Shown: one piece after another, positions 6,132 through 64,000 of the stretch
Layout: every line of letters starts with the position of its first letter
How positions within the stretch are numbered: the stretch's first letter is position 1
Assembly: GCF_000612545.2 (NCBI RefSeq)
Contig: NZ_CP097800.1
Span: 6,354,501-6,418,500 of the forward strand
Direction: 5' to 3'
Source: Streptomyces sp. PCS3-D2
Lineage (GTDB): Bacteria > Actinomycetota > Actinomycetes > Streptomycetales > Streptomycetaceae
Length of the DNA stretch: 64,000 nucleotides
Notes under the pieces: model-generated
The model's database searches: none
Seen by the model: only the letters and a program-made list of their open reading frames with translations
Told to the model about the DNA's origin: nothing
Translations under genes and position numbers: made by a program

Positions 6132-7622
6132 GTGCTCGACCACGGCCAGGCGCCACCGCTCGCTTCCGAGCCCCGCAGGCCCGCCAACCCGCTGCTCCGC
6201 CGCAAGCCGGTCGAGCTGCTGGTCGCCGAAGGCGGCCAGGGCGAAGGCGGCGCGCTCAAGCGTTCGCTCACCATGTGGCAGCTGACCATGATCAGCATCG
6301 GCGCGACCCTGGGCACCGGCATCTTCGTCGTCCTCGGCGAAGCCACCCCGATCGCCGGCCCGGCCGTCTTCATCGCCTTCATCGTCGCGGGCCTGACCGC
6401 GCTCTTCTCGGCGCTCTCCTACGCCGAGCTCGCGGGCTCCATCCCCGTCTCGGGCTCCTCGTACTCCTACGCCTACGCCACCATGGGCGAGCTCATAGCC
6501 TGGGTCTGCGGCTGGTGCCTGGTCCTGGAGTACGGCGTCTCGGTCGCCGCCGTCGCCGTCGGCTGGGGCCAGTACCTCAACGAGCTGCTCGACGGCACGC
6601 TCGGCGTCACCATCCCCGAGGGCTTCTCCGCTCCGCTGGGCGAGGGCGGCTACATCAACATGCCGGCGCTGGTCGTCGTCCTGCTCTGCATGGTGTTCCT
6701 GCTGCGCGGCGCCAAGGAGAGCGCCCGGATCAACACGATCATGGTCGCCGTCAAGATCGTCACGCTGGGCCTCTTCATCGTGATCGGCTTCATGGGCATC
6801 AAGGCCGGCAACTACACCCCGCTGGCCCCGCTCGGCGTCACCGCCATCAGCACCGCCGCCTCCATGCTCTTCTTCTCCTACATCGGCTTCGACGCGGCCT
6901 CCACGGCCGGCGAGGAGGCCAAGGACCCGAAGCGGGACCTGCCCCGCGCGATCATGCTCTCGCTGCTGATCGTCACCGCGATCTACTGCCTCGTCGCCCT
7001 GGTCGCCGTCGGCGCCATGCCGTGGCAGGAGTTCGAGGGCAGCGAGGCCGCCCTGGCCCAGATCATGGAAGACGTCACCGGCCACTCCTTCTGGAGCGTC
7101 ATCCTGGCCGCCGGCGCGGTCGTCGCCATCGCCAGCGTCGTCTTCGCCGTCCTCTACGGCCAGACCCGCATCCTCTTCGCCATGTCCCGCGACGGCCTGA
7201 TGCCGAAGGCCTTCGCCAAGGTCGACGAGAAGACCGGCACCCCGAAGGTCAACACGATCATCGTCTGCCTCTTCTGCGGACTCCTCGCCGCCTTCATCCC
7301 GCTGGGTGAACTGGCCAACGCCACCAGCATCGGCACGCTCTTCGCCTTCGGCCTGGTCAACGTGGCGGTCGTCATCCTGCGCTACACCCGCCCCGAGATG
7401 AACCGCACCTTCAAGGTCGCCCTCTTCCCGGTCACCCCGATCCTGGGCTTCCTCTTCTGCGCGTACCTCATGACCGAGCTGCCGCTGGCCACCTGGTTGG
7501 TGTTCGGTGGCTGGATGGCGGTCGGGCTCGTGATCTACTTCTTCTACGGCATGCGCCGCTCCAGCCTGGCCACCGTGGCCGACGTGGCCGCCCCGGCCGC
7601 GGAGGTCGCTGAACAGAAGTGA
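6132..7622 (+). CDS. APC-family amino-acid permease (cationic amino acid transporter type)
   Basis: Polytopic inner-membrane transporter of 496 aa with about 12-14 membrane segments. The core opens with WQLTMISIGATLGTGIFVV, the Gly-rich TM1 substrate loop of APC transporters, and continues with FFSYIGFDAASTAGEEAKDP, the conserved TM6/loop signature of the CAT subfamily. Expected to import amino acids with protons. Start GTG 6132 follows AAGGAG by 8 bases; the frame is open further upstream but without hydrophobic content. The Lrp regulator starts 10 bases after the stop, and the amine oxidase and nitrilase genes follow, so the import substrate may feed those enzymes. Confidence 0.9.
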   Translation: MLDHGQAPPLASEPRRPANPLLRRKPVELLVAEGGQGEGGALKRSLTMWQLTMISIGATLGTGIFVVLGEATPIAGPAVFIAFIVAGLTALFSALSYAELAGSIPVSGSSYSYAYATMGELIAWVCGWCLVLEYGVSVAAVAVGWGQYLNELLDGTLGVTIPEGFSAPLGEGGYINMPALVVVLLCMVFLLRGAKESARINTIMVAVKIVTLGLFIVIGFMGIKAGNYTPLAPLGVTAISTAASMLFFSYIGFDAASTAGEEAKDPKRDLPRAIMLSLLIVTAIYCLVALVAVGAMPWQEFEGSEAALAQIMEDVTGHSFWSVILAAGAVVAIASVVFAVLYGQTRILFAMSRDGLMPKAFAKVDEKTGTPKVNTIIVCLFCGLLAAFIPLGELANATSIGTLFAFGLVNVAVVILRYTRPEMNRTFKVALFPVTPILGFLFCAYLMTELPLATWLVFGGWMAVGLVIYFFYGMRRSSLATVADVAAPAAEVAEQK

Positions 7623-7632
7623 TTCACCCCCC

Positions 7633-8088
7633 GTGCGACTGAACGATCTCGACGAACGCATCGTGCACGCCCTCGCCGAGGACGCCCGCCGCTCCTACGC
7701 GGACATCGGCTCCGAGGTCGGGCTCTCCGCCCCCGCCGTGAAGCGGCGCGTGGACCGGCTGCGCGCCGAAGGCGCCATCACCGGATTCACCGTCCGCGTC
7801 GACCCGGCCGCCATGGGCTGGGAGACCGAGGGCTTCATCGAGATCTACTGTCGCCACAACACCTCGCCGGACGACATCCGGCGAGGACTGGAGCGGTACC
7901 CCGAGGTGGTGTCCGCGTCGACCGTCACCGGCGACGCGGACGCCCTCGTCCAGATCTTCGCCTCCGACATGCGGCACTTCGAGCGGGTCCTGGAACGCAT
8001 CGCGGGCGAGCCCTTCGTCGAGCGCACGAAGTCCGTCCTCGTCCTCTCCCCGCTGCTGCGCCGCTTCACCTCGGGCGCCCCCGCGTAG
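7633..8088 (+). CDS. Lrp/AsnC-family transcriptional regulator
   Basis: Feast/famine regulator of 151 aa. The N-terminal winged helix-turn-helix (about 1-60) contains LDERIVHALAEDARRSYADI and SAPAVKRRVDRL; the C-terminal RAM effector-binding domain covers about 65-145. GTG start, 10 bases after the permease stop, so probably cotranscribed. The likely targets are the permease and the nitrilase/amine-oxidase genes, because similar CGCAAC repeats sit before both. Ligand is not known; an amino acid is expected for the family. Confidence 0.9.
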   Translation: MRLNDLDERIVHALAEDARRSYADIGSEVGLSAPAVKRRVDRLRAEGAITGFTVRVDPAAMGWETEGFIEIYCRHNTSPDDIRRGLERYPEVVSASTVTGDADALVQIFASDMRHFERVLERIAGEPFVERTKSVLVLSPLLRRFTSGAPA

Positions 8089-8146
8089 CCGCCCCGTCGT
8101 CCCGCGCGCCTCGTGCGCCGCCGGACGGAAAACCGGGTGCCCGGAG

Positions 8147-8163
8147 CGTCCCGGACCGGGACG
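8147..8163. promoter_or_regulatory. 17-base palindrome before the methyltransferase gene
   Basis: CGTCCCGG-A-CCGGGACG is perfectly symmetric and ends 8 bases before the GTG at 8172. It could be an operator or an RNA hairpin that covers the start; chance is also possible in DNA this GC-rich. Confidence 0.3.
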
Positions 8164-8171
8164 GTGTACGG

Positions 8172-8909
8172 GTGAACCGAGAAACGATCTCCCACCTGGC
8201 CCACACCCACCACCCCATCGCGGCCCCGCTGGGCGACGGCGCCGTGGCCCGGCTCCTGGACCGCGCGCTGGCCCGCGGCACCGAACGCGTCCTCGACCTC
8301 GGCTGCGGCCCCGGCGAGTGGCTGCTGCGGGCCCTGCGCGACCGCCCCGGCGTGCACGGCGTCGGCGTCGACGTCTCCGGGACCGCCCTCGACCGGGCCG
8401 CCGGCGCGGCACAGGCCCTCGGCGTCGCCGACCGACTCTCCCTGCACCGGCGGCCCGCCGCCGACCACACCGACCCGCACCCCTACGACCTGGTCCTCAG
8501 TGTCGGCGCGGCCCACGCCTTCGGCGGGCTCCCGGCCACGCTCGACGCCGCCCGCGCCCACCTCGCCCCCGGCGGCCACGCCCTCGTCGGAGACGGCTAC
8601 TGGGAGCACCCGCCCACCCCCGCCGACCTCGACACCTTCGGCCGGCTCCCGGACCTGCCCACGTTCGTCGACCAGGTCACAGCAGCCGGCTGGACCCCGG
8701 TGTACGGTCACCTCAGCACCCGCGAGGAACGCGACGACTACGAGTGGTCCTGGACCGGTTCGCTGGCCGCCTGGGCCCTCGACCACCCCGACCACCCGGA
8801 CAGCGCCGAAGCCCTCGACGCAGCGAACGGCCATCGCGCCGCATGGCTCCGCGGATACCGCGCCACCTGGGGGTTCGCCACCCTCCTGCTGCGCCGGACC
8901 GCCGACTGA
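8172..8909 (+). CDS. Class I SAM-dependent methyltransferase
   Basis: Protein of 245 aa with a Rossmann-like methyltransferase core: motif I VLDLGCGPGEWLL, an acidic residue after beta-2 (GVDVS), then LVLSVGAAHAFGG (motif IV region) and HALVGDGYWEHPP. This matches the methyltransf_25/11 group. The acceptor substrate cannot be told from sequence. Start GTG 8172 has a weak ribosome-binding site and lies 83 bases after the Lrp gene, with a palindrome in the gap. The DGYWE motif is common in actinomycete methyltransferases of unassigned role. Confidence 0.85.
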   Translation: MNRETISHLAHTHHPIAAPLGDGAVARLLDRALARGTERVLDLGCGPGEWLLRALRDRPGVHGVGVDVSGTALDRAAGAAQALGVADRLSLHRRPAADHTDPHPYDLVLSVGAAHAFGGLPATLDAARAHLAPGGHALVGDGYWEHPPTPADLDTFGRLPDLPTFVDQVTAAGWTPVYGHLSTREERDDYEWSWTGSLAAWALDHPDHPDSAEALDAANGHRAAWLRGYRATWGFATLLLRRTAD

Positions 8910-8930
8910 CCGGCCCCTGCGGCCATCGGA

Positions 8931-9007
8931 CGCAACGAATCGCCGCCAGAGCCCCGTAACGCGCAACGAATCGCACAGCAGCGCGCAACATCGGCGCCTT
9001 GTTGCGC
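8931..9007 (+). promoter_or_regulatory. Phased CGCAAC repeats upstream of the nitrilase gene (candidate Lrp operator)
   Basis: CGCAACGAATCGC occurs exactly at 8931-8943 and 8962-8974 (31 bases apart). A third CGCAAC starts at 8984 (22 bases on), and its extended form GCGCAACA (8983-8990) is mirrored by TGTTGCGC at 9000-9007. Near-helical spacing fits a wrapped, oligomeric regulator such as Lrp. Confidence 0.5.
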
Positions 9008-9070
9008 CGGGAGGGCGAAACGTACCGTTCATAGGACCGCATACACCCCTCCTGCCACAGAGGTACGCCC

Positions 9071-9871
9071 ATGCCCCCGCTGCGCACCGCCCTCCTCCAG
9101 AGCTCCGGAGTCCTCGGCGACGTCGCCGAGAACCTCAAGGCGCTCGACGAGGCCGCCGAGCGCGCCGCACAGGCGGGGGCCGGGCTGCTGGTGGCGCCGG
9201 AGATGTTCCTGACCGGCTACGCGCTCGACCTCGACGCCGTCCCCGGACTCGCGGAGGCCCACGACGGCGACTCCGCCCGGGCCATCGGCGAGATCGCCCG
9301 CCGCCACGGACTCGCGGTCCTCTACGGCTACCCCGAGCGGGACGGCGACACGGTCTACAACTCCGCCCAGCTCATCGGCCCCGACGGCGCCTCCCTGGCG
9401 AACTACCGCAAGACCCACCTCTTCGGCTGCTTCGAGCAGGACGCCTTCACCCCCGGCGACGCCCCCGTCGTCCAGGCCGACCTCGGCGGCATCCGCGTCG
9501 GCATCATGATCTGCTACGACGTGGAGTTCCCCGAGAACGTCCGCGCCCACGCACTCGCCGGTACCGACCTCCTCCTGGTGCCGACCGCCCAGATGCACCC
9601 CTTCCAGTTCGTCGCCGAGCACCTCGTCCCCGTCCGGGCCTTCGAGAACCAGATGTACGTCGCGTACGTCAACCGCACCGGCCCCGAGGGCGAGTTCGAG
9701 TTCGTCGGTCTCAGCTGCCTGGCGAGCCCCGACGGCGCCACCCGCACCCGCGCAGGCCGCGGCGAGGAAATGGTGTTCGGCGAGGTCGACCCCGAGCTGC
9801 TCAGCGCCTCGCGCGAGAACAACCCCTACCTGCGCGACCGCAGGCCCGGGCTCTACGCCTCGCTCGTCTGA
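9071..9871 (+). CDS. Nitrilase-superfamily carbon-nitrogen hydrolase
   Basis: Cytoplasmic amidase/omega-amidase-type enzyme of 266 aa. The catalytic triad is visible: Glu in LLVAPEMFLTGY, Lys in YRKTHLFG and Cys in GIMICYDVEFPENVR. Length fits the single-domain family. ATG 9071 follows GAGG by 8 bases. The amine-oxidase gene follows 75 bases on, and the pair would oxidise an amine or amino acid and hydrolyse an amide product. The regulatory repeats just upstream suggest it heads its own Lrp-controlled transcript. Confidence 0.9.
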   Translation: MPPLRTALLQSSGVLGDVAENLKALDEAAERAAQAGAGLLVAPEMFLTGYALDLDAVPGLAEAHDGDSARAIGEIARRHGLAVLYGYPERDGDTVYNSAQLIGPDGASLANYRKTHLFGCFEQDAFTPGDAPVVQADLGGIRVGIMICYDVEFPENVRAHALAGTDLLLVPTAQMHPFQFVAEHLVPVRAFENQMYVAYVNRTGPEGEFEFVGLSCLASPDGATRTRAGRGEEMVFGEVDPELLSASRENNPYLRDRRPGLYASLV

Positions 9872-9946
9872 CCCCCGCCGGTATCCCGCCGCACCCCGCC
9901 CCCACCGCTCCACCCCCGAGCCCTGCCCCGCAAGGAGTCGTACCCC

Positions 9947-11644
9947 ATGACGTCCACGGTGCCCACCACCGCCGTCCCGCACAGTGACGGACAGCCGCCG
10001 ATCACCATGTTCGGTCCGGACTTCCCGTACGCCTACGACGACTTCCTCGCCCACCCGGCGGGCCTCGGCCAGATACCCGCGACCGAGTTCGGCACCGAGG
10101 TCGCCGTCATCGGCGGCGGACTCTCCGGCATCGTCTCGGCCTACGAGCTGATGAAGATGGGCCTCAAGCCCGTCGTCTACGAGGCCGACCAGATCGGCGG
10201 CCGCCTGCGCACCGTCGGCTTCGAGGGCGCCGAGACCGAGGGCCTCACCGCCGAGATGGGCGCCATGCGCTTCCCGCCCTCCTCCACGGCCCTGCAGCAC
10301 TACATCGACCTCGTCGGCCTGGTCACCGAGCCCTTCCCGAACCCGCTCGCCGAGGCCACCCCCTCCACGGTCGTCGACCTCAAGGGCGAGACCCACTACG
10401 CCGAGACCATCGCCGACCTCCCGCAGATCTACCGCGACGTCGCCGAGGCCTGGAACGCCTGCCTCGACGAGGGCGCCGACTTCTCCGACATGAACACCGC
10501 GATGCGCGAGCGGGACGTCCCGCGCATCCGCGAGATCTGGGCCAAGCTCGTCGAGAAGCTCGACGACGAGACCTTCTACGGCTTCCTGTGCAAGTCGGAG
10601 GCCTTCAAGTCCTTCCGCAAGCGCGAGATCTTCGGCCAGGTCGGCTTCGGCACCGGCGGCTGGGACACCGACTTCCCGAACTCGATCCTCGAAATCCTGC
10701 GCGTCGTCTACACCGAGGCCGACGACCACCACCGCGGCATCGTCGGCGGCTCGCAGCAGCTGCCGCTGCGCCTGTGGGAGCGCGAGCCCGAGAAGATCGT
10801 CCACTGGGCCCAGGGGACCTCGCTGTCCTCCCTCCACGACGGCACCCCGCGCCCGGCGGTGACCCGACTGCACCGCACGGCGGGCAACCGGATCACGGTC
10901 ACGGACTCCTCCGGAGACATCCGCACGTACCGCGCCGCGATCTTCACGGCCCAGTCGTGGATGCTCCTGTCGAAGATCGAGTGCGACGACACGCTGTTCC
11001 CGATCGACCACTGGACGGCGATCGAGCGCACCCACTACATGGAGTCGTCCAAGCTGTTCGTCCCCGTCGACCGGCCGTTCTGGCTGGACAAGGACGAGGA
11101 GACCGGCCGCGACGTCATGTCGATGACGCTGACCGACCGCATGACCCGCGGCACCTACCTGCTGGACAACGGCCCCGACAAGCCCGCCGTCATCTGCCTG
11201 TCGTACACCTGGTGCGACGACAGCCTGAAGTGGCTGCCGCTGTCCGCGAACGAGCGGATGGAGGTCATGCTGAAGTCCCTCGGCGAGATCTACCCCAAGG
11301 TCGACATCCGCCGCCACATCATCGGCAACCCGGTCACCGTCTCCTGGGAGGACGAGCCCTACTTCATGGGCGCGTTCAAGGCCAACCTCCCCGGCCACTA
11401 CCGCTACCAGCGCCGCCTGTACACCCACTTCATGCAGGACCGCCTCCCCGAGGACAAGCGCGGCATCTTCCTCGCGGGCGACGACATCTCCTGGACGGCG
11501 GGCTGGGCCGAGGGCGCGGTCCAGACGGCCCTGAACGCGGTCTGGGGCGTCATGCACCACCTCGGCGGGTCCACGGACTCCACCAACCCGGGCCCCGGCG
11601 ACGTCTACGACGAGATCGCCCCGGTCGAACTCCCGGAGGACTGA
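9947..11644 (+). CDS. FAD-dependent amine/L-amino-acid oxidase
   Basis: Flavoenzyme of 565 aa in the monoamine oxidase/LAAO superfamily. The FAD dinucleotide motif is VAVIGGGLSGIVSAYEL (about 48-64) ending in an acidic residue (VVYEAD), followed by GGRLRTV and EMGAMRFP, the second flavin-contact stretch. The C-terminal flavin motif is FLAGDDISWTAGWAEGAVQTA. Expected reaction is oxidative deamination with release of ammonia and peroxide. ATG 9947 follows CAAGGAG. No Tat or Sec signal is visible, so it should be cytoplasmic. It is probably cotranscribed with the nitrilase gene. The exact substrate is unknown. Confidence 0.88.
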   Translation: MTSTVPTTAVPHSDGQPPITMFGPDFPYAYDDFLAHPAGLGQIPATEFGTEVAVIGGGLSGIVSAYELMKMGLKPVVYEADQIGGRLRTVGFEGAETEGLTAEMGAMRFPPSSTALQHYIDLVGLVTEPFPNPLAEATPSTVVDLKGETHYAETIADLPQIYRDVAEAWNACLDEGADFSDMNTAMRERDVPRIREIWAKLVEKLDDETFYGFLCKSEAFKSFRKREIFGQVGFGTGGWDTDFPNSILEILRVVYTEADDHHRGIVGGSQQLPLRLWEREPEKIVHWAQGTSLSSLHDGTPRPAVTRLHRTAGNRITVTDSSGDIRTYRAAIFTAQSWMLLSKIECDDTLFPIDHWTAIERTHYMESSKLFVPVDRPFWLDKDEETGRDVMSMTLTDRMTRGTYLLDNGPDKPAVICLSYTWCDDSLKWLPLSANERMEVMLKSLGEIYPKVDIRRHIIGNPVTVSWEDEPYFMGAFKANLPGHYRYQRRLYTHFMQDRLPEDKRGIFLAGDDISWTAGWAEGAVQTALNAVWGVMHHLGGSTDSTNPGPGDVYDEIAPVELPED

Positions 11645-11768
11645 CCCCCTCCCGGTCCCGCGATCCACGGGCCGTCGCCCCGCGCCGTCAGCACGCGGGC
11701 CGGCGGCCCGTTCCCGTACCGGGCCCCGAGCGGAGCCCGCGCTTGTCCACGGGGCCGGGCCCCTCCCT

Positions 11769-12410
11769 TCAGCCGCGGGGAGTCAGCAGGCAGCGGCCGA
11801 CCAGGCCCACGCATGCGTCCAGGGAGTCCGCGAACTCCTCGGCCAGGTCCGGCGCGCGGCGCAGCGTCCACAGCAGCCGGGCCGCGGACCAGGCACCGGC
11901 GCGGGCCCGCTCCAGGCTCCACGAGCCGACCAGGTGGGTCAGCGGATCGGCGATCTCCAGCAGGTCCGGACCCGGCATCAGGTCCTCGCGGATGTGCTCC
12001 TCCAACGAGACCAGCGTGTCGCCGACCCGGTCGAAGTCCGCCTCCAGGGCCCGCGGTTCGCAGTCCAGCTCACCGCAGGTGGCGACCACCGCGAGCGCCA
12101 GGTCGTGACCGATGTGGGCGTTGATCCCGGCCAGCGCGTGCTGGAGCGGCCGGATCCCTGGGTGGCGGCGGTACTGCAGCAACGGGCGCCAGCAGGCCGG
12201 AGCCCGGTCCGCCTCCACCGCCGCCAGGTACCGCTCCGCGAACCGCACGCTGAGGGTCGCCGCGCGCCGCGGCGCCGGGAAACCCCCGTGCTCGATCCGA
12301 TGGTGCAGGGCCTCCGTCACCGTCAGGTAGACCCGGTTGAAGACGGCGACACCGTCCCGCGGCGGGAGCCGCTCCTCCAGGGCGCGCATCCGCGCCAGCA
12401 CCGCTTCCAT
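11769..12410 (-). CDS. DUF5995-family protein
   Basis: All-helical protein of about 213 aa that I assign to DUF5995 from FNRVYLTVTEALHHRIEHG, FAERYLAAV and HALAGINAHIGHDLALAV. The His/Asp pattern INAHIGHDL hints at a metal or heme site, but function is unknown. Start is uncertain: ATG 12410 begins the conserved region, and an in-frame GTG at 12437 is an alternative. The longest frame (12542) would overlap the neighbouring permease gene and is unlikely. It lies 76 bases after the permease gene on the same strand. Confidence 0.75.
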   Translation of the reverse strand: MEAVLARMRALEERLPPRDGVAVFNRVYLTVTEALHHRIEHGGFPAPRRAATLSVRFAERYLAAVEADRAPACWRPLLQYRRHPGIRPLQHALAGINAHIGHDLALAVVATCGELDCEPRALEADFDRVGDTLVSLEEHIREDLMPGPDLLEIADPLTHLVGSWSLERARAGAWSAARLLWTLRRAPDLAEEFADSLDACVGLVGRCLLTPRG

Positions 12411-12486
12411 GGGAGGCAGAGTCGCAGGCGCCGGCACGGATCCGGGGAACTTGGCCGTACGCTTCCCCGGTTCGGGCGAAACCCCG

Positions 12487-13884
12487 TCAACGGGGCTTGT
12501 CCTCCGCCTCCCCGCCGTCGTCATAGCCGGACGTGCCCGCATCGAGCAGCGGTTCCTGCGGCTTCAGGTGCGCGGGGGCGAGGCATCGCAGCGCGTGGTA
12601 GCCCCCTATCACCACGATCGTGCCCAGTGCGATGCCGCCCAGCTCGAAGTCGTCGGTGATCTGCAGCTTCACCCCGCCGACGCCGATGATGATGCCCGCG
12701 GCGGCCGGGACCAGGTTCAGCGGATTGCGCAGGTCCACCCGGCCGTTGATCCAGATCTGGGCGCCGAGCAGGCCGATCATGCCGTACAGGATGACGGTGA
12801 TGCCGCCGAGGACGCCGCCCGGGATCGCCGCGACGACCGCGCCGAACTTGGGGCACAGCCCGAAGAGCAGCGCGAAGCCCGCCGCGGCCCAGTACGCCGC
12901 CGTGGAGTAGACCCGGGTGGCCGCCATGACGCCGATGTTCTCCGAGTAGGTGGTGTTGGGCGGGCCGCCCACCGCCGTGGACAGCATCGACGCGGCGCCG
13001 TCCGCCGCGATGGCCGTGCCCAACATGTCGTCCAGGGGGTCGCCGGTCATCTCTCCCACGGCCTTGATGTGGCCGGCGTTCTCGGCGATCAGCGCGATCA
13101 CCACGGGCAGGGCGATCAGGATCGCCGACCACTCGAAGGACGGTCCGTGAAAGGACGGCAGTCCGATCCAGTCGGCCTCCGCGACCGCGGAGAGGTCCAG
13201 ACGCCAGTGGTCCACCGCCGCCGTCCCGCCCACCGTCGAGTGGATCTTCCCGAAGAGCCGGTCGAAGAGCCATGAGATCGCGTAGCCGAAGACCAGCCCG
13301 AGGAAGATCGCGACGCGCGACCAGAAGCCCCGCAGGCACACCACGGCGAACCCGGTGAACAGCATGGTCAGCAACGCCGTCCACTGGTCCTGCGGCCAGT
13401 ACGTCGACGCCGTCACCGGGGCCAGGTTGAAGCCGATCAGCATCACCACCGCGCCCGTCACGATCGGCGGCATCGCCGTGTGGATGACGCGCGCGCCGAA
13501 GCGCCGCACCGCCAGACCGGCGAGAAACAGCGCCACTCCGACGACGAACACGGAGCCCGTGACCACGGCGCTGTCTCCGCCCGACGCCCGGATCGCCGCG
13601 GCGACACCGACGAAGGACAGCGAGCAGCCCAGGTACGAGGGCACCCGGCCGCGCGTCGCGAGCAGGAAGATCACCGTCGCGATGCCGGACATCATGATGG
13701 CCAGGTTCGGATCCAGGCCCATCAGCACCGGCGCGACGAAACTCGCGCCGAACATCGCCACGACGTGCTGGGCGCCCAGCCCGGCGGTCCGCGGCCACGT
13801 CAGCCGCTCCTCCGGCCGGACCACCGCGCCGGGGGCGGGGGTCCGCCCGTCTCCGTGCAGGGTCCAGCCCACGCCGAGGCGCAT
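12487..13884 (-). CDS. Uracil-xanthine permease (NCS2/SLC23 family)
   Basis: Inner-membrane nucleobase:cation symporter of 465 aa. Family marks include AQHVVAMFGASFVAPVLMGL near the N-terminus, IALIAENAGHIKAVG (the TM8 substrate motif with Glu), GGPPNTTYSENIGVMAATRV (TM10 signature) and IPGGVLGGITVILYGMIG. The Glu and Asn-Thr positions agree with UraA-type uracil permeases. ATG 13884 follows GAGGAGTG. Two copies of a 16-base repeat (13899-13931) lie directly before the ribosome-binding site. No pyrimidine genes are adjacent. Confidence 0.9.
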   Translation of the reverse strand: MRLGVGWTLHGDGRTPAPGAVVRPEERLTWPRTAGLGAQHVVAMFGASFVAPVLMGLDPNLAIMMSGIATVIFLLATRGRVPSYLGCSLSFVGVAAAIRASGGDSAVVTGSVFVVGVALFLAGLAVRRFGARVIHTAMPPIVTGAVVMLIGFNLAPVTASTYWPQDQWTALLTMLFTGFAVVCLRGFWSRVAIFLGLVFGYAISWLFDRLFGKIHSTVGGTAAVDHWRLDLSAVAEADWIGLPSFHGPSFEWSAILIALPVVIALIAENAGHIKAVGEMTGDPLDDMLGTAIAADGAASMLSTAVGGPPNTTYSENIGVMAATRVYSTAAYWAAAGFALLFGLCPKFGAVVAAIPGGVLGGITVILYGMIGLLGAQIWINGRVDLRNPLNLVPAAAGIIIGVGGVKLQITDDFELGGIALGTIVVIGGYHALRCLAPAHLKPQEPLLDAGTSGYDDGGEAEDKPR

Positions 13885-13898
13885 GTTCCACTCCTCTT

Positions 13899-13931
13899 CA
13901 CCGGTTGTCCCGGTTCACTGGTTGTCCCGGT
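13899..13931 (-). repeat. Two 16-base direct repeats before the uracil permease start
   Basis: CACCGGTTGTCCCGGT (13899-13914) and CACTGGTTGTCCCGGT (13916-13931) differ at one base and repeat with a 17-base period. They lie in the 5' leader of the minus-strand permease gene and could be an operator or leader element. Confidence 0.55.
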
Positions 13932-13970
13932 CCTCCGGACGCGCACGGCAGCGGCCGCGCACACATCGAA

Positions 13971-13999
13971 GCCGCAGCGTGACAGGGTGCCGCTGCGGC
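13971..13999 (-). terminator. Hairpin after the MFS gene
   Basis: GCCGCAGCG (13971-13979) pairs perfectly with CGCTGCGGC (13991-13999) around an 11-base loop, 12 bases past the MFS stop codon at 14011. Confidence 0.6.
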
Positions 14000-14010
14000 C
14001 AGTCGACATA

Positions 14011-15249
14011 TTACGGCCGGATATCGACAGGTTCATCCCTGCCGGCCGATCCGGCGTTCCCGGCGACCCCGCCCCCGGACTGCCCCGTCACCGGCCTCGG
14101 GCGCAGCACCGCGGCGCCGATCACCAGCGCGAACGCCAACACGGTCACCAGCCCGAACGACACGACCAGCGAGGTCGCGTCCGCCACCGCGCCGATCGCC
14201 GACGGCGCGATCAGCCCCGACGTGTACGTGATCGTCGCGACACCCGCGATCGCCTGTGCCGGGGCCGGCCCGCTGCGCCCCGCCGCGGCGAAGGCCAGCG
14301 GGACCACCACCGCGATGCCGAGCCCGATCAGTCCGAAACCGGCCAGCGCCCCCGCCGGATGCCGGACCCCGACGACGAGCAGCCCGCCGAGGGTGGCCAG
14401 CACGCCACCCGCGCGGACCGTGCGCACCGGCCCGAAGCGGTCCACCACCCGGTCGCCGACGAGCCTGGCCACGGCCATGGTCAGCGCGAAGGCGGTGGTC
14501 GAGGCGGCCGCGAGGCCCGCGTCCGTGTGCAGGACGTCCCGCAGGTAGACCGCCGACCAGTCCAGGCTCGCACCCTCGGCGAACACCGCGCAGAAGCCGA
14601 TCGCGCCGATCAGCAGCGCGGACCGGGGCGGCAGGGCGAAGTGCGGGGGTGCCTGCGCGTCCCCGTCGCTGCGCAGGTCCAGCACCCCCTGTACGGCGAC
14701 CAGGCCGCCCGCGGTCAGCACGAGCGCGGCGAACAGGTGGTGTAGCCGGGCGTCGGTGCCGGCGTGCGCGGCGACCGTGCCGGCCGCGGAACCGAGCAGC
14801 GCGCCCACGCTCCACATGCCGTGCAGGGAGGACATGATGGAGCGGCCCAGTCGGTTCTCGGTCTCCACGCCCAGCGCGTTCATCGCCACGTCCGACATGC
14901 CGGCGGTGGCCCCGTAGACGAGCAGCACCAGGCACAGGACCGGCAGGCTCGGGGCGAGGCTCGGCAGGATCAGCGACAGGGTCCACAGCGCCAGCAGCCC
15001 CCGTAGCGCGGCCCGTGCCCCGAACCGGTGGTTGATCCGTCCGGCCAGCGGCATCGCGAGCGCAGCGCCCACGGCGGGGAAGGCGAGCGCGAGCCCGAGG
15101 GTGCCCGCGCTGAGCTGGGCGTGCTCCTGGATCCAGGGGATGCGGGTGGCGAAGGAGCCGGTGACCGCGCCGTGGGCGCAGAACACGGTGGCGATGGCGA
15201 TGCGGGCACGGCGCAGGCGCGCCGGGCTGAGGTCGGTGTCCCCGGTCAT
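14011..15249 (-). CDS. MFS transporter (YbjJ-like)
   Basis: Twelve-segment major-facilitator transporter of 412 aa, probably an exporter or small-solute permease. It has the MFS A-motif-like loop GRINHRFGARAA after TM2 and the YbjJ-type stretch AEGASLDWSAVYLRD in the middle. ATG 15249 has no ribosome-binding site; on the minus strand TAGTTT ends 7 bases before it, so the message may be leaderless. It is divergent from the ROK regulator, and an 8+8 palindrome between them suggests ROK control. Substrate is unknown. Confidence 0.85.
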   Translation of the reverse strand: MTGDTDLSPARLRRARIAIATVFCAHGAVTGSFATRIPWIQEHAQLSAGTLGLALAFPAVGAALAMPLAGRINHRFGARAALRGLLALWTLSLILPSLAPSLPVLCLVLLVYGATAGMSDVAMNALGVETENRLGRSIMSSLHGMWSVGALLGSAAGTVAAHAGTDARLHHLFAALVLTAGGLVAVQGVLDLRSDGDAQAPPHFALPPRSALLIGAIGFCAVFAEGASLDWSAVYLRDVLHTDAGLAAASTTAFALTMAVARLVGDRVVDRFGPVRTVRAGGVLATLGGLLVVGVRHPAGALAGFGLIGLGIAVVVPLAFAAAGRSGPAPAQAIAGVATITYTSGLIAPSAIGAVADATSLVVSFGLVTVLAFALVIGAAVLRPRPVTGQSGGGVAGNAGSAGRDEPVDIRP

Positions 15250-58145: not shown

Positions 58146-58176
58146 TTGGGATGTTGTCAGCAACAGGACCTAGTCT
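58146..58176 (+). promoter_or_regulatory. Candidate promoter for the SMC-like operon (leaderless)
   Basis: TTGGGA (58146-58151), 19 bases, TAGTCT (58171-58176), then 6 bases to GTG 58183. Transcription would start at or near the start codon. Confidence 0.4.
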
Positions 58177-58182
58177 TTGTCC

Positions 58183-59685
58183 GTGACTCTCCCCGCCCCG
58201 GCGAAGACCCTTCCCTCCCCGGCGCCGGGCCCGGCCGCCGACGAGGGCCTGGCCCGGCGGCTGCGCGCGCTCGCCTGCACCGCCCCGCTCCACGACCTCG
58301 ACGTACGCAAGGCCAATCTGGCGGGCGAGTACGGCATCTACGCCATGGCGGAGGTCGCGCTCGCCGCGATCGACCTGGTCACCCTCAACATGGACTTCGA
58401 CACCGGCGCCGACCACGAGCAGATAGTGGCCAGGCTGCTGCCGCGCGTCGCGGCCCAGGCGCCGGCCCGCCCGACGGCCGAGCACGAGCGGGTGGCCCGC
58501 TGGGTGCTGGAGAACCTGATCAACGTCGGCAGTGTGGACCGGGGCTTCCGTGCGATCTACGGCACCTTCGGCCCCGACGGCGTCTACGTGCGCCGCGACT
58601 ACGACTTCAAGCTGATCGAAGAGGTCCCCTACGGCGGCGCGGTCTACCTGCGCACCACCGACGAGGCCGTCAACGTCCTGGTCGGGGCCCTCGACACCGA
58701 TGTCACCAGCGCCCAGATCGCCGCCGAGGTCAAGCTGGAGGTGCTGATCAGCCGCGGGCGGCTGGCGGATGCCCAACTGGCCGCCGAGCAGGCCCGCTAC
58801 CGGACCGTGCAGTACGCCGAGACCCTGCGCCGGACCCTGGACGCGACCCGGCGCAACGTCCGGGCGGTGGACTGGCTCCAGGCCGTCCCGGACATGATCG
58901 CCGAGGCGCTGGAGCACGTCGCCGACCGCTACCGCCACGAGAACGCGATCCTCACGAACATCCGCAGGGCGCGCGACGAGGCCGAGGAGCCGGAGAACAA
59001 GCGCCGCGCGGCCGAGCTCGTCGACATCGTCAAGGACTGCATCCGCCGCCACACCCAGCTGCAGTCCCGGCTGCTGGACGCCGGCCCGCTGTTCCGCGCC
59101 GAGCAGGACCGCCAGGCCTTCGCCGCCCCGGCGGCGCGCACCGGCATCGACCTGTACGGGCAGCTCGTCGCCCCGCTCCTGCCGCTGCCCGTGGAGCAGG
59201 CGCGCCGGGTCACCGACGCCTTCTTCGCCGCCGGGGCGGGGCTGCGCACGCCCGTCTCGGTGCGGGTCGCCGACCTCGTCGAGATCCTGCTCACCCCGCC
59301 GGTGGAACGCGAACACCTCGGCGCGGAGATGCCGGAGCCGGACCTGATCGCCACCCCGGACGACAGCCGCTTCAGCGAGGAGCAGCTCGCCGCCGCGATG
59401 CGGCTCCTGGACCTGCCGCACGACGCCCCGCGCCGGCTGTCCGGACTCCTCGCGGAGGCCCGCCGCAGCGATAGCGAACTGCCCTACCTGGTGGCCCTGC
59501 TGGCCGTGCACGCCGCGAGCCCGGCCGTGGGCACCGCGTACCGCCAGGGCGAGGAGCGGCTGCTCTTCGCCGTGGACGACGGCACCCAGCTCGACGACCC
59601 CGAGTTCGGCGGCGCCGACCTCATCGTCGGCACCGCTCTCCTCGACGCCGCCGGCATGGCCGCCGACCGTGCGGAGGCGTCGTGA
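58183..59685 (+). CDS. Helical protein, candidate MksF/JetA-like (kleisin) subunit of SMC-like complex
   Basis: Cytoplasmic protein of 500 aa that I cannot place in a named family. After a Pro-rich start (about 1-22) it is predicted all-helical: ERVARWVLENLINVGSVDRG and TFGPDGVYVRRDYDFKLIEE (a winged-helix-like segment), then a long helical middle (about 215-305, YAETLRRTLDATRRNVRAVD, EHVADRYRHENAILTNIRR). Length, first position and helical middle resemble MukF/MksF and JetA. Start: GTG 58183 fits a leaderless message; TTG 58177 (with AGGA 8 bases upstream) is an alternative. It overlaps the next ORF by 4 bases. Confidence 0.8.
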   Translation: MTLPAPAKTLPSPAPGPAADEGLARRLRALACTAPLHDLDVRKANLAGEYGIYAMAEVALAAIDLVTLNMDFDTGADHEQIVARLLPRVAAQAPARPTAEHERVARWVLENLINVGSVDRGFRAIYGTFGPDGVYVRRDYDFKLIEEVPYGGAVYLRTTDEAVNVLVGALDTDVTSAQIAAEVKLEVLISRGRLADAQLAAEQARYRTVQYAETLRRTLDATRRNVRAVDWLQAVPDMIAEALEHVADRYRHENAILTNIRRARDEAEEPENKRRAAELVDIVKDCIRRHTQLQSRLLDAGPLFRAEQDRQAFAAPAARTGIDLYGQLVAPLLPLPVEQARRVTDAFFAAGAGLRTPVSVRVADLVEILLTPPVEREHLGAEMPEPDLIATPDDSRFSEEQLAAAMRLLDLPHDAPRRLSGLLAEARRSDSELPYLVALLAVHAASPAVGTAYRQGEERLLFAVDDGTQLDDPEFGGADLIVGTALLDAAGMAADRAEAS

Positions 59686-60005
59686 GCCGCCCTGTCCCGG
59701 CGCCGGCCGGACGGGTGGCGGCAGTCGCCGCGCCCGCACCGGAGCCGGTCCCGCCGGGGCCCACACCCGTCCCGCCGGACCTGGCGGCGCGGGCGCCGAG
59801 GCGCAGCGGCCCCGGGAAACCCGGCCCCGCCCGGCACCGATTCCTGCCCGGCCCCGGCCCCGGCCCCGGCTGCCGCCGGGCGGTGTCCGCGGCCCACGCT
59901 CCGGCGGGGCCGAACGCGCCGGAGCCGCCCGCCGCGCACAGCGGACCCGCCGACCGCCCCCGTACGCCCCGTACCACCCGCACCGCCGAGGAGACGCACC
60001 CGTGA
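59682..60005 (+). CDS. Proline/alanine-rich mini-ORF bridging two operon genes
   Basis: Frame of 107 codons starting at GTG 59682, which overlaps the preceding stop (GTGA), with GGAGG 4 bases upstream. It ends in TGA 60003-60005, overlapping the next start GTG 60002 (GTGA). About 90 percent of third positions are G/C. The protein is disordered (GPGPGPG, PPGPTPVPPDL) with many Arg and one Cys. It could be a translated linker, a real disordered subunit or a coupling ORF. No family is recognised. Confidence 0.5.
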   Translation: MSRPVPAPAGRVAAVAAPAPEPVPPGPTPVPPDLAARAPRRSGPGKPGPARHRFLPGPGPGPGCRRAVSAAHAPAGPNAPEPPAAHSGPADRPRTPRTTRTAEETHP

Positions 60006-60904
60006 GCGACCACCACGCCGAGCACCCCGCGTGGAGCGAGCCCGACACGTCGTCGGCTCCCGTCGCGCCCGCCGCCGGAGGGTCGGTGACCCCGGCGGAC
60101 GCCGCCGACGCGGCCCGGCTCGTCGCCTTCGGGCTCCAGCCCAAGCTGGCCCCCGCCCGTGACGCCGAGTACGCCGAACTGCTCCGCCGCTACCGTGAGG
60201 AACCCGCCTTCGGCCGCCTCGCCGACGCCGTCGCGACCGGCCTCGGCCTCGTCGTGCTGGAGGTGTCCCCGCGCGCCGGAATGGCCGTGGCCGCCGACGA
60301 GGAATCCGTCTTCGCCGTCCGCATGGGCGACTACGCCCGCCGCACCGCGGCAGACTCCGCCGACCGGTTCCTGCACGGCCTCGCCCACCTCGCCGTCGCC
60401 GCCCTCGCCTTCCCGCGCCCCGAGGACCTCGCCGACGACGGATACATCGGCCGCGTCACCGTCAACGGCGTCGACGCCTTCGTCCGGCAGACCTGCCGCC
60501 GTCTGGAGGAGCGCGCCGAGGAGCTCGGTGAGAACACCGACCCGGCCTCCGACGCCCCGGGGCTGGAGGCCGCCTGGCGCGTCTACGCCCGCCGCAGCGC
60601 GACCGGTGCCACCAAGGACGCCCGCCGCCTCGCCGGGTCCACCACGGGCATCGTCGGCAAGGCCGCCGCCTTCCTCACCGACTCCGGCTTCCTCCAGCGC
60701 ACCGGGGACGAGGCCGGCGGCACCTACCGCACCACCCCCCGCTACCAGCTCCAGGTCCGCGACATGGCGGGCAGCTCGGCCATGGCCGAGCTCCTGGAAC
60801 TCGGCGTGGTCCCCGTCAGCGACGGCTCCGCCACCCTCCTGCCGGCGCCCGAGGGCGACGACCTGGAGCTGGCCGCCGACGCCGGGCTGCCCTTCCACGC
60901 CTGA
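60002..60904 (+). CDS. Candidate MksE/JetB-like (KITE) subunit, probable winged-helix protein
   Basis: Cytoplasmic protein of 300 aa. The first 45 residues are polar; a helical core follows (EYAELLRRYREEPAFGRLAD, LVVLEVSPRAGMAVAADEES, DRFLHGLAHLAVAALAFPRP), then a winged-helix-like segment (STTGIVGKAAAFLTDSGFLQ, then YRTTPRYQLQVRDMA). The ending MAELLELGVVPVSDGS is typical of MksE/JetB-like partners that end in a wing. The family is not recognised by name; the role is inferred from gene order beside an SMC-like ATPase. GTG 60002 follows GAGGAG. Confidence 0.8.
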   Translation: MSDHHAEHPAWSEPDTSSAPVAPAAGGSVTPADAADAARLVAFGLQPKLAPARDAEYAELLRRYREEPAFGRLADAVATGLGLVVLEVSPRAGMAVAADEESVFAVRMGDYARRTAADSADRFLHGLAHLAVAALAFPRPEDLADDGYIGRVTVNGVDAFVRQTCRRLEERAEELGENTDPASDAPGLEAAWRVYARRSATGATKDARRLAGSTTGIVGKAAAFLTDSGFLQRTGDEAGGTYRTTPRYQLQVRDMAGSSAMAELLELGVVPVSDGSATLLPAPEGDDLELAADAGLPFHA

Positions 60905-60957
60905 GTCCCGACTCCCCCAGACCCTCCCTCACCCAGACACCACGAGAGTCCGCCGCC

Positions 60958-63900
60958 ATGTACGAGCTGTCCCGGATCCGCCTCTACTCCATCGGGCCCG
61001 CCGGCGCACGCTACGCCGACACCGTGCTCGACCTGCGCGGAGTCGGCGAGCCGGTGCCCCACCCGGCGCCGACCCAGGCGGAGTTCTTCGAGGAGGAGCC
61101 CACCGGGCCGCCGCGCCGCCCCGCGCCCGCCGGAGTGCTCTTCCTGGAGAACGGCGGCGGCAAGTCCGTCCTCCTCAAGCTGATCTTCTCGGTGATGCTC
61201 CCGGGCCACCGCAACACCCTGGGCGGCGCCAGTTCCGGCGTGCTGCGCAAGTTCCTGCTCGCCGACGACTGCGGCCACGTGGCCCTGGAGTGGCAGCACA
61301 CCCAGACCGGTGAATGCGTGGTCGTCGGCAAGGTCAGTGAATGGCGCGGCCGCCAGGTCTCGGGCGACCCCCGCAAGTTCGCCGAGGCCTGGTACTCCTT
61401 CCGCCCCGGCCCCGGCCTGAGCCTGGACAGCCTGCCCGTCGCCGAGTCCACCGCCGTGCGCCCGCCCGCCGAGGGGGCCTCCGGCGCGCAGGGGCGCCGC
61501 CGCACCATGAAGGGCTTCCGAGACGCCCTCACCGAGGCGGGCAAGGCCTACCCGCACCTGGAGGTCTGCTTCGAGGAGATCCACGACCGTTGGAACGAGC
61601 ACCTCACCGAACTCGGCCTCGACCCCGAACTCTTCCGCTACCAGCGCGAGATGAACGCCGACGAAGGTGAGGCGGCCGGCCTCTTCGCGGTCAAGAAGGA
61701 CTCCGACTTCACCGACCTGCTGCTGCGCGCCGTCACCGACACGCGCGACACGGACGGCCTCGCCGATCTCGTCCACGGCTTCGGCAACAAGCTCGGCCGG
61801 CGGGCCGAGCTCATGGCCGAACGCGACTTCACCGCCGGCTCGGTGGACCTGCTCACCAAGATCGTCGAAGCCGGCGCCACCCGCTCCCGACTGCGCGATG
61901 TCCACGCCGGCGCCGAGCGCCGCACGCGCACCCTCGCCCGCCGGCTGTCCGCCCGCGCCGCCGAGGAGCGCGGCCGGGCCGCCGACCTCGCCCAGCGCGT
62001 CACCGCCGCAGCCCACGACGTCACCGCAGCCGAGTCGGCCCGCGCCCGCAGCGCGGCCGTCTCCGCCGAACTCGCCTACCGGCACGCCTCCCTGGCCCTG
62101 ACCGTCGCCGACAAGGCCGCCGCCGCGCAGCGCCGCGAACTCCTCGAAGCCCGCACCCTGTACTCCGCCTGGCAGGCCGCCGAGACCGTGCTGCGCCACC
62201 GCGCCGCCGCCGACCGCTCCGCCCGTGTCGCCGCCGCGATCCGGGAGGCGGAGCGGGACGCGGCCCCGGCCCTGGCCGCACGTGCCACGGCCGCGGGTGA
62301 GCTCGTACGGGCCCTGCACAGCGCCGCGGAGGAGGGCGAGCGGCTCGCCAACGAAGAGGAGGAGCGTTCCGCCGCCCTCCAGGCCACCGGTGAGGCCTCC
62401 CACCGCGACGCCACCGCCGCCGCCACGGCCGCCCAGCGGGCCCGGAGCGAGGCCGAGCACCTCCGGGCCAGGCTCAGCGAGGTGCAGCAGGAGACCGCCG
62501 AAGCCGTCCGGGCCGGCTGGCTCGACGACTCCGCCCCCGACGCCGACCCGGCCCGCGCCGCCCTGGCCGCCGCCGACGCCGAGAAGGCCGCCGTGGCCGC
62601 CTGGGACGAGTCGCGCGAGGCCGCCCGGGCCGCTGCCGAAGCCGCCCGTGAGGCCGCGGCCGCGGAATCTCGGGCCGAGCTGACCGCCGCCCGGGCCGCG
62701 GACGCCGCCGAGGCAGCCGAGGCCGCCCACGACGCAGAGCACCGCGCCGCCGCCTCCCTCGCCGCATCGCCCCGCCTCGCGGAGCTCCTCGGACTGCCCT
62801 CGGACGTGGGCGCCCCGGACGTTCCGTTCCCCTCTCCCCGCACCGGCGACGACCCCTCGGGCCGGTCCGCCGCGGGCCCCGGCGAAGCCCGGCGCACCGG
62901 CCGCGCGGCGCCGGTCACCGCCGCGGACCTGCTCACCGCCGAGGACCTCGACCGGGGCGCCGACGCCCTGCGCGAACTCCTGGCCGACAGCGTCGCCTCC
63001 GCCGAGCGCCAGCTGTTCGAGCTGCGCACCGCGGCCGCCGACGACGCCCGCATCCTCGGGGCGCTCGGCGACGGGGGGCTGCTGCCGCCCGGCCCGGACG
63101 TCCTCGCCACCGTCGAGTACCTCGGCGAGCACGGCATCCCCGCACTTCCCGGCTGGCGCTACCTCGCCCAGGCCGTGGACCCCGCCGACCACGCGGCCGT
63201 CCTCGCGGCCCGTCCGGAGCTCGTCGACGGTGTCGTCATCACCGACCCCGACACCCATGGCCGGGCCCGCGAGGTCCTCTCCGGCGCCGCCCTGCTGCCC
63301 CGTTCCACCGTGGCCGTCGGCACGGCCGCGGCCCTGCTCGCCCCCGTGCCCCAGGCCGGCCCGGACGACGCCGTCTCCGGCATCTTCATCGTCACGCCGA
63401 ACCCGGCCATGCACGACGAGAACGCCGCCGACGAGGAGCGCCAAGCCCTGCGCACCCGAGCCGGTGCCCGCGACACCGAGATCCGCGACCTCGCCGCCCG
63501 CCTCGCCGGTGACCGCGAGCTGTCCGCCCGGCTCGCCTCCTGGCGCGCCGGCTGCCCGGCCGGCCGCCTCACCGAGCTCGCCGAACAGGCCGCCGCCGCC
63601 CGTATGTTCGCCGAGGAGACCGACAGCGAGCTCGCGGAGGCCCGTACGGTGCGCGCCGAGGCCGACGAGGCCGCCGCCGACGCGGCCCGTGTCCGGGAGG
63701 AGCGCCAGGACACCGCCCAGCGCGCCCGCCGCGCCGCAGACGCCCTCGCGGGCCTCGCCTTCCGCCTGCGCGAGCGCGCGGGCTGGCAGGCCCGCGTGCG
63801 CGAACTCGCCGACGAGGCCGCCGAGTCCGAGGCCCGTGCCGAGGCCTGCCTGGACCGGGCCCGCGCCGCCGACGAGGACCGCCGCGCGGCGCAGCGCGCC

Positions 63901-64000
63901 GCCGACGACGCCCGCCGCACGGCCCGGGCCCTGCGCGCCGAGCGCGCCGAGATCGCCGGCGCCCCCGACCGGCTGCCGGAGGCCGACGACGGCCCGCGCG
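60958..64000 (+). CDS. SMC/Rad50-like ATPase, candidate MksB/JetC, 3' end cut by window edge
   Basis: Large coiled-coil ATPase; 1014 residues visible with no stop. The N-terminal head has RIRLYSIGPAGARYADTVLD and Walker A FLENGGGKSVLLKL (K69, S70). Residues about 285-590 are Ala/Arg/Glu-rich coiled coil (first arm). Residues about 597-818 form a globular middle domain (LPGWRYLAQAVDPADHAAVL, GVVITDP, TVAVGTAAALLAP). A second arm starts near 820 and runs off the window. The C-terminal head with signature motif and Walker B should lie beyond 64000. By layout it is an SMC-like loop extruder of the MukB/MksB/JetC type, diverged in sequence. ATG 60958 lies 53 bases after the previous gene. Confidence 0.85.
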   Translation, partial: MYELSRIRLYSIGPAGARYADTVLDLRGVGEPVPHPAPTQAEFFEEEPTGPPRRPAPAGVLFLENGGGKSVLLKLIFSVMLPGHRNTLGGASSGVLRKFLLADDCGHVALEWQHTQTGECVVVGKVSEWRGRQVSGDPRKFAEAWYSFRPGPGLSLDSLPVAESTAVRPPAEGASGAQGRRRTMKGFRDALTEAGKAYPHLEVCFEEIHDRWNEHLTELGLDPELFRYQREMNADEGEAAGLFAVKKDSDFTDLLLRAVTDTRDTDGLADLVHGFGNKLGRRAELMAERDFTAGSVDLLTKIVEAGATRSRLRDVHAGAERRTRTLARRLSARAAEERGRAADLAQRVTAAAHDVTAAESARARSAAVSAELAYRHASLALTVADKAAAAQRRELLEARTLYSAWQAAETVLRHRAAADRSARVAAAIREAERDAAPALAARATAAGELVRALHSAAEEGERLANEEEERSAALQATGEASHRDATAAATAAQRARSEAEHLRARLSEVQQETAEAVRAGWLDDSAPDADPARAALAAADAEKAAVAAWDESREAARAAAEAAREAAAAESRAELTAARAADAAEAAEAAHDAEHRAAASLAASPRLAELLGLPSDVGAPDVPFPSPRTGDDPSGRSAAGPGEARRTGRAAPVTAADLLTAEDLDRGADALRELLADSVASAERQLFELRTAAADDARILGALGDGGLLPPGPDVLATVEYLGEHGIPALPGWRYLAQAVDPADHAAVLAARPELVDGVVITDPDTHGRAREVLSGAALLPRSTVAVGTAAALLAPVPQAGPDDAVSGIFIVTPNPAMHDENAADEERQALRTRAGARDTEIRDLAARLAGDRELSARLASWRAGCPAGRLTELAEQAAAARMFAEETDSELAEARTVRAEADEAAADAARVREERQDTAQRARRAADALAGLAFRLRERAGWQARVRELADEAAESEARAEACLDRARAADEDRRAAQRAADDARRTARALRAERAEIAGAPDRLPEADDGPR

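Follow-up and report, generated by a model that had tools for sequence, protein, structure and literature searches.

The systems closest to the operon described here are the Wadjet defence systems, for whose types I, II and III PADLOC holds the nucleases JetD1, JetD2 and JetD3, and MksBEF/MukBEF, structural maintenance of chromosomes (SMC) complexes with the order kleisin-KITE-SMC and no nuclease. In passages of PMC10586767 it has been proposed that defence SMC complexes become chromosomal through the loss of JetD. MksBEFG of Corynebacterium glutamicum possesses the nuclease MksG and serves in plasmid defence, and MksB has no effect on chromosome organisation, according to passages of PMC10123090. 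The operon in question, formed by genes A, B and C, lies in a stretch of 64,000 nucleotides (the window, meaning the whole stretch of DNA analysed) that corresponds to contig positions 6354501-6418500 of the 7.6-Mb genome of Streptomyces sp. PCS3-D2 (NZ_CP097800.1). Judged by their sequences, A and C belong to JetA3 and JetC3, two established families of Wadjet type III, and the operon is a predicted JetABC without JetD. It is probably a complete type III JetA-JetB-JetC minus JetD, kept as a second housekeeping SMC motor working on host DNA beside Smc-ScpAB.

With Wadjet type III, the operon shares the JetA3 and JetC3 families, the order A-B-C and a variant Walker B motif in JetC. However, it has no JetD, it is near-universal and largely syntenic where type III is sporadic, and it carries what looks like a conserved promoter of the leaderless type and a longer A-B spacer. 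Like MksBEF/MukBEF it lacks a nuclease, and it would share with them the order kleisin-KITE-SMC, the order here being taken from the genes and the positions of A and B from homology; unlike them, it shows no detectable MukF or MukE membership, and, given its type III origin, the same path would have been taken here separately. Like MksBEFG, it would be an actinobacterial second SMC complex beside Smc-ScpAB. The same genome also encodes a Wadjet SMC system of type II, but this one is complete with JetD2. The features of the operon are as follows.

58154..58176, + strand: promoter-like element, TTGTCA (58154-58159) and TAGTCT (58171-58176), from a conserved pattern
58183..59685, + strand: gene A, JetA3 family (kleisin position), 500 residues, GTG start, PADLOC PDLC00567
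59686..60001, + strand: A-B spacer, non-coding as judged by conservation, earlier read as a mini-protein at 59682-60005
60002..60904, + strand: gene B, JetB (KITE position), 300 residues, GTG start
60958..65661, + strand: gene C, JetC3 SMC ATPase, 1567 residues, ending beyond the window (window part 60958..64000; L009:2959-7662)
61147..61167, + strand: Walker A motif of C, ENGGGKS, residues 64-70, read from the sequence
63055..63477, + strand: hinge-like segment of C, about residues 700-840, from a conservation and composition profile of 21 JetC proteins

Family identity and conservation of the three genes

Gene A matches the PADLOC model JetA3 (PDLC00567) with an E-value of 4.3e-184 and 611 bits, and gene C matches JetC3 (PDLC00588) with an E-value of 0 and 1383 bits. 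Thus, the core idea of an earlier note on this DNA, that of an MksBEF/Wadjet-like SMC operon, is upheld, as are the sizes and order that it gave for A, B and C, while its suggestion of a new branch that could not be assigned is dropped, since A and C fit JetA3 and JetC3, although Pfam and NCBIfam give them no name. Gene B gave no PADLOC match at E<=1. It was compared with the B of three complete A-B-C-D operons of other Streptomyces genomes (L060, L061 and L062). PADLOC recognises JetD3 in each of them and, in L060, JetA3 and JetC3 as well, their remaining members being assigned by similarity; the B of the window is 51%, 49% and 32% identical to theirs, respectively. The B of L060 matches JetB3 weakly (7.6e-4), and those of L061 and L062 have no PADLOC match.

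None of the three proteins reaches the cut-off of any Pfam or NCBIfam family, those of MukF, MukE and MukB included, and comparison by hhalign with single Escherichia coli sequences gave probabilities of 0.7% for MukF, 1% for MukE and 30% for MukB. Profile comparison of A and B with single JetA2 and JetB2 sequences returned nothing, that of C with JetC2 aligned the Walker A region only (3.7% probability), and profile searches of PDB sequences gave no significant match. The assignment of A and B to the kleisin and KITE positions is made because of their homology with Wadjet type III and the order of the genes.

In C, the profile of 21 JetC proteins, which is not a structure, delineates a head-coil-hinge-coil-head layout, with conserved ends, two stretches low in proline and glycine, and a conserved middle rich in both. 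The stop codon is found 1.7 kb beyond the end of the window, and the frame runs on, as had been anticipated, into a C-terminal head bearing the signature FSGGQ and the Walker B motif LFLDNP. The Walker A motif ENGGGKS is present in 95/95 core loci with a C match, and signature and Walker B in 89 of these, the remaining six being cut by contig ends. SMC ATPases usually carry a catalytic glutamate after the Walker B aspartate; every JetC3 that could be read here has LDNP, with asparagine at that position (89 core loci, 15 from other genera of the family, 10 from a second family, f20, and the genome G706, and 15 JetABCD loci).

The earlier note had described four consecutive frames, of which A, B and C stand as real genes, whereas the mini-protein placed between A and B (59682-60005) does not. 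A tblastn search at 1e-5 found no counterpart of it in any of 142 loci. The nearest relative has an A that is 98% identical, yet its spacer is just 52% identical and contains gaps that shift the frame. As a candidate fourth subunit it was consequently rejected, being unconserved in 142 loci and interrupted by frame-shifting gaps in near relatives; on conservation grounds, we take these positions to be spacer and not a gene, and the 4-base overlaps formerly noted around it are a by-product of taking spacer for gene. The gap between the A and B matches varies in core loci from 38 to 2822 bp (median 158), in comparison with a median of 27 bp in JetABCD loci.

Ratios of non-synonymous to synonymous substitution (dN/dS) against eight orthologues, of 0.07-0.14 for A, 0.09-0.20 for B and 0.10-0.23 for C, indicate that all three genes are under purifying selection. 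Third codon positions are strongly biased in their GC content (0.96 in A, 0.91 in C). Upstream, TAGTCT ends 6 nt before the GTG of A, and the pattern TAnnnT-N4..9-[GA]TGAC is present at the start of A in 98/98 distinct Streptomyces loci, with a spacing that is always 6 or 7. Of 15 other genera of Streptomycetaceae, 12 have it too, with a spacing of 6-8. The pattern was seen in 1/15 JetABCD loci and 0/11 f20 loci, which are weak controls, the starts there being less surely placed. This element looks like a conserved, predicted promoter of the leaderless type.

JetD and the spread of the core locus

The core sample comprised 100 Streptomyces loci (80 of them named), 98 of which are distinct after dropping two duplicates. 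JetD was detected in none of the 88 distinct core loci whose downstream sequence reaches 9 kb or more, nor in the 15 loci from 15 other Streptomycetaceae genera, and the source genome has no match to JetD_C, JetD3 or type I JetD, the last of these having been searched for in the source genome only. Since the family PF09983 exceeded its cut-off in only one of three type III JetD tested, the JetD3 model of PADLOC was used as well; with the same queries, JetD was picked up in 15 further loci, three of which had supplied the queries, at identities as low as 31%. The complete JetABCD operons are separate from the core locus and sporadic. Thus, where the earlier note had left it undecided whether a nuclease lay downstream, both the sequence beyond position 64000 and the relatives show no JetD.

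The possibility that JetD is supplied from elsewhere in the genome was considered and rejected: there is no JetD3 or JetD_C, and the type II JetD sits in its own complete operon (JetA2, JetB2, JetC2 and JetD2, at about 1.732-1.742 Mb; L279 about 6738-15080, - strand) and does not track the core locus.

Conservation over Streptomyces genomes, raised in the earlier note as a check, is borne out by core-type JetA (E<=3.2e-172) in 239 of 246 genomes, JetA matches of any kind being found in 240. Among genomes with a completeness of 90% or more and a contamination of 5% or less, JetA is present in 237 of 239; the six genomes without it have a completeness of 78-98%, and four of them consist of more than 700 contigs. 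In the family Streptomycetaceae, 120 of 121 genomes match JetA; 119 of these matches, spread over 16 of 17 genera, have E<=2.6e-179. Among 394 genomes sampled across the class, 61 have a match, namely 40 Streptomyces, 19 of the family f20, G706 and, weakly, G615; at least one f20 genome, G382, has none. The JetA of the window is 98% identical to that of Streptomyces amritsarensis, and the 80 named loci kept in the JetA search are all from Streptomyces, bar one from an 'Actinobacteria bacterium'. The three genes are all present in 93 of the 98 distinct loci, the exceptions being four contig ends (L072, L089, L112 and L141) and the genome G012.

The surroundings are also largely maintained. On the opposite strand upstream of A are found pxpC, pxpB and pxpA, so that the pxpABC neighbourhood formerly noted is real, and downstream of C a small protein encoded on the opposite strand precedes a sensor kinase and a GTPase, which we take to be of the kind found in Streptomyces conservons. 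Counting the two duplicates, pxpA was detected in 78/94 and the conservon-type kinase in 71/90 core loci with enough flank. The small protein (L009:7797-8246, - strand, window 65796-66245) has no Pfam or NCBIfam family and is found near the locus in 72/90 core loci. Neither it nor the conservon-type genes were accepted as operon partners, the former lying on the opposite strand and the kinase being present in 71/90 core loci. An attempt to guess the Streptomyces coelicolor locus through the conservon rar region led to the wrong place (there, SCO1631 is annotated as a helicase and SCO1633 as tatA).

Among mobile elements, phage records gave no JetA match, and plasmids gave five distant ones. 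One of these, on a 77-kb linear plasmid record of Rhodococcus (L267, NZ_CP070616.1), is a JetA relative accompanied by two genes of fitting size and a gene annotated with a JetD domain, which together are a Wadjet-type operon on a plasmid. An IMG/VR contig catalogued as viral (L266) carries a core JetA with 89% identity; it probably contains Streptomyces chromosomal DNA.

Some further observations concern the type III operons. In two genomes JetD3 is found near both chromosome ends, as if in terminal inverted repeats (G175:C1 66624 and 8038764; G114:C1 15696 and 9222617). A protein with tetratricopeptide repeats (TPR) follows JetD3 in three Streptomyces type III operons (L060:15796-17766, +; L061:4703-6565, -; and L159), with about 31% identity between loci, that of L060 having also a weak NB-ARC/STAND match; an extra type III component is a possible role for it. 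In L064 (G051:C178), genes that by eye resemble SbcD and SbcC are located directly upstream of a JetA3-JetB pair.

Trees of JetA and JetC

In the trees of A, which like that of C are unrooted, the JetABC loci of Streptomycetaceae form one clade with short branches (support 100/100), and those of f20 a separate clade (100/100), while the JetABCD rows are scattered on long branches. Three long-branched sequences (L063, L264 and L265) were omitted from the tree used for constraint tests, and L242 from the other A tree. Joining the Streptomycetaceae and f20 sets is not rejected (p 0.43). A single clade for all nuclease-free A was discarded, as adding G706, which has no JetD beside its JetA copy, is rejected (p 0.004). 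In the tree of C, f20 groups with JetABCD rows (97/97), apart from Streptomycetaceae. From the 19 f20 genomes matched, 13 loci were fetched, 11 of which have no JetD in the flanking DNA (for seven of these the downstream part covers 9 kb or more), whereas L250 and L253 have one.

Since all three Wadjet types, I, II and III, include a JetD, its loss is likelier than its gain. JetD was thus probably lost at least twice, in Streptomycetaceae and in f20, although the unrooted trees are no proof of it. A wider scenario is put forward tentatively, with somewhat less than even confidence: that these losses within the class were independent, that the complex was then kept as a chromosomal SMC, and that in Streptomycetaceae it would be an overlooked second condensin for linear, multi-copy hyphal chromosomes.

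Proposed function and competing explanations

In the proposed mechanism, JetA, in the kleisin position, and JetB, in the KITE position, would most likely engage the head domains of a JetC dimer, with the complex extruding or tethering DNA through cycles of ATP, as JetABC and MksBEF do. Without JetD the complex would not cut DNA, and its target would be the host's own chromosome, alongside Smc-ScpAB. The analysis establishes the gene content and families, the absence of JetD, the ubiquity and synteny of the locus, its selective constraint, the promoter-like element and the ATPase motifs; the kleisin and KITE folds, loop extrusion and chromosomal action, and with them the motor activity and its target, are what we infer. 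ATP-driven extrusion or tethering without cutting is suggested because passages of PMC10586767 and PMC10123090 describe the relatives JetABC and MksBEF as SMC motors or as DNA-binding ATPases of the SMC type. The source genome contains a canonical Smc (904.7 bits) and ScpA, so that JetABC would be an additional complex, and ubiquity together with synteny makes it unlike an accessory defence system.

Several observations weigh against a housekeeping motor. AlphaFold models of A and B, built from shallow alignments, reach a predicted local distance difference test (pLDDT) of only 45 and 49, Foldseek with these models found nothing at E<=0.001, and neither protein has profile similarity to the single MukF, MukE, JetA2 and JetB2 sequences; chains low in the Foldseek lists, 9gmb_E (MukEF) and 8dk1_F (JetABC) for B and 3euh_A (MukE-MukF) for A, were given no weight. 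Given the asparagine in LDNP, brisk ATP hydrolysis is not assured, though complete JetABCD3 operons have it too. As for its spread, one Streptomyces genome (G145) has a weak A match (E 6e-69), a genome of Streptomycetaceae (G333) has no JetA match, and in G278, the sole sampled genome of the seventeenth genus, JetA is distant (27%) and its locus is a complete JetABCD. In G012 (L055, L280), A breaks off at residue 459, from where its tail differs, and B is located at a distance of 3.3 Mb, with no C in the 16 kb examined; this may be a real rearrangement or an assembly error, and such a broken locus implies that the complex may not be strictly essential.

It is unlikely that the operon still serves in defence, with JetABC extruding small circular plasmids and recruiting a type II or III JetD encoded elsewhere, or silencing plasmids without cutting them. 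Its relatives do include complete JetABCD operons, and the source genome does have its separate complete Wadjet type II with JetD2, but the presence of a nuclease does not follow that of the core locus. The type II JetD family, PF09664, exceeds its cut-off in 101 of the 246 Streptomyces genomes, in some through short fragments, and JetD3 is strong (E<1e-40) in 19 and present at E<=0.001 in 34; the union of PF09664 and strong JetD3 amounts to 109 genomes, four of which have no JetA match. Thus, among the 240 genomes with JetA, 105 have one or the other and 135 have neither. Moreover, both positions were listed for 13 genomes: in 8 of them JetD3 shares a contig with the core locus at a distance of 302 kb or more, and in the other 5 it is on a different contig. 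These differing distributions indicate that the core complex is kept with or without a PF09664/JetD3 nuclease; they have no bearing on silencing without cutting.

A different possibility, rather improbable in our opinion, is that the complex is a clamp or tether that does not cycle, the asparagine in place of the catalytic glutamate allowing ATP and DNA to be bound with slow hydrolysis, so that DNA would be bridged and not extruded. LDNP is indeed present in all JetC3 with a readable motif, with and without JetD; however, this makes it a trait of the whole JetC3 family that is not peculiar to the nuclease-free branch, the base may be a different residue, and type III Wadjet restriction would need hydrolysis. 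Still less credible, to the point of being very improbable, is a neutral relic, left behind when a defence operon lost its effector. Although the missing JetD and the broken locus of G012 would fit it, a relic is hard to reconcile with dN/dS values of 0.07-0.23, with the three genes in 93/98 distinct loci and four of the five exceptions at contig ends, with Walker A in 95/95 and signature and Walker B in 89/95, or with a conserved promoter-like element and core-type JetA in 16/17 genera. A second housekeeping SMC motor remains the explanation that we prefer.

With regard to the literature, in passages of a study on the Streptomyces chromosome (PMC13121528), Smc is the condensin of Streptomyces, and Mks is mentioned for Mycobacterium only. 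In the parts used of a DefenseFinder survey of Actinobacteria (PMC10482375), Wadjet is placed towards the ends of Streptomyces chromosomes and restriction-modification (92%) is the example of a widespread system; the core locus thus seems not to have been counted there as Wadjet. No report of a JetD-less JetABC in Streptomyces was found in the titles, abstract beginnings and passages of the PMC literature, bioRxiv being outside the search.

If nearly all members of the family have a second SMC complex, descriptions of how the nucleoid folds would have to reckon with JetABC, and defence surveys scoring JetA and JetC alone would miscall the core locus as Wadjet. Streptomyces holds JetABC in nearly all genomes and JetABCD in a minority, making a comparison in one host possible, and the presence of both forms in one genus would offer a direct test of the JetD-loss proposal in PMC10586767. 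In sum, these data suggest a defence machine turned into a second, as yet unstudied, chromosome-handling complex.

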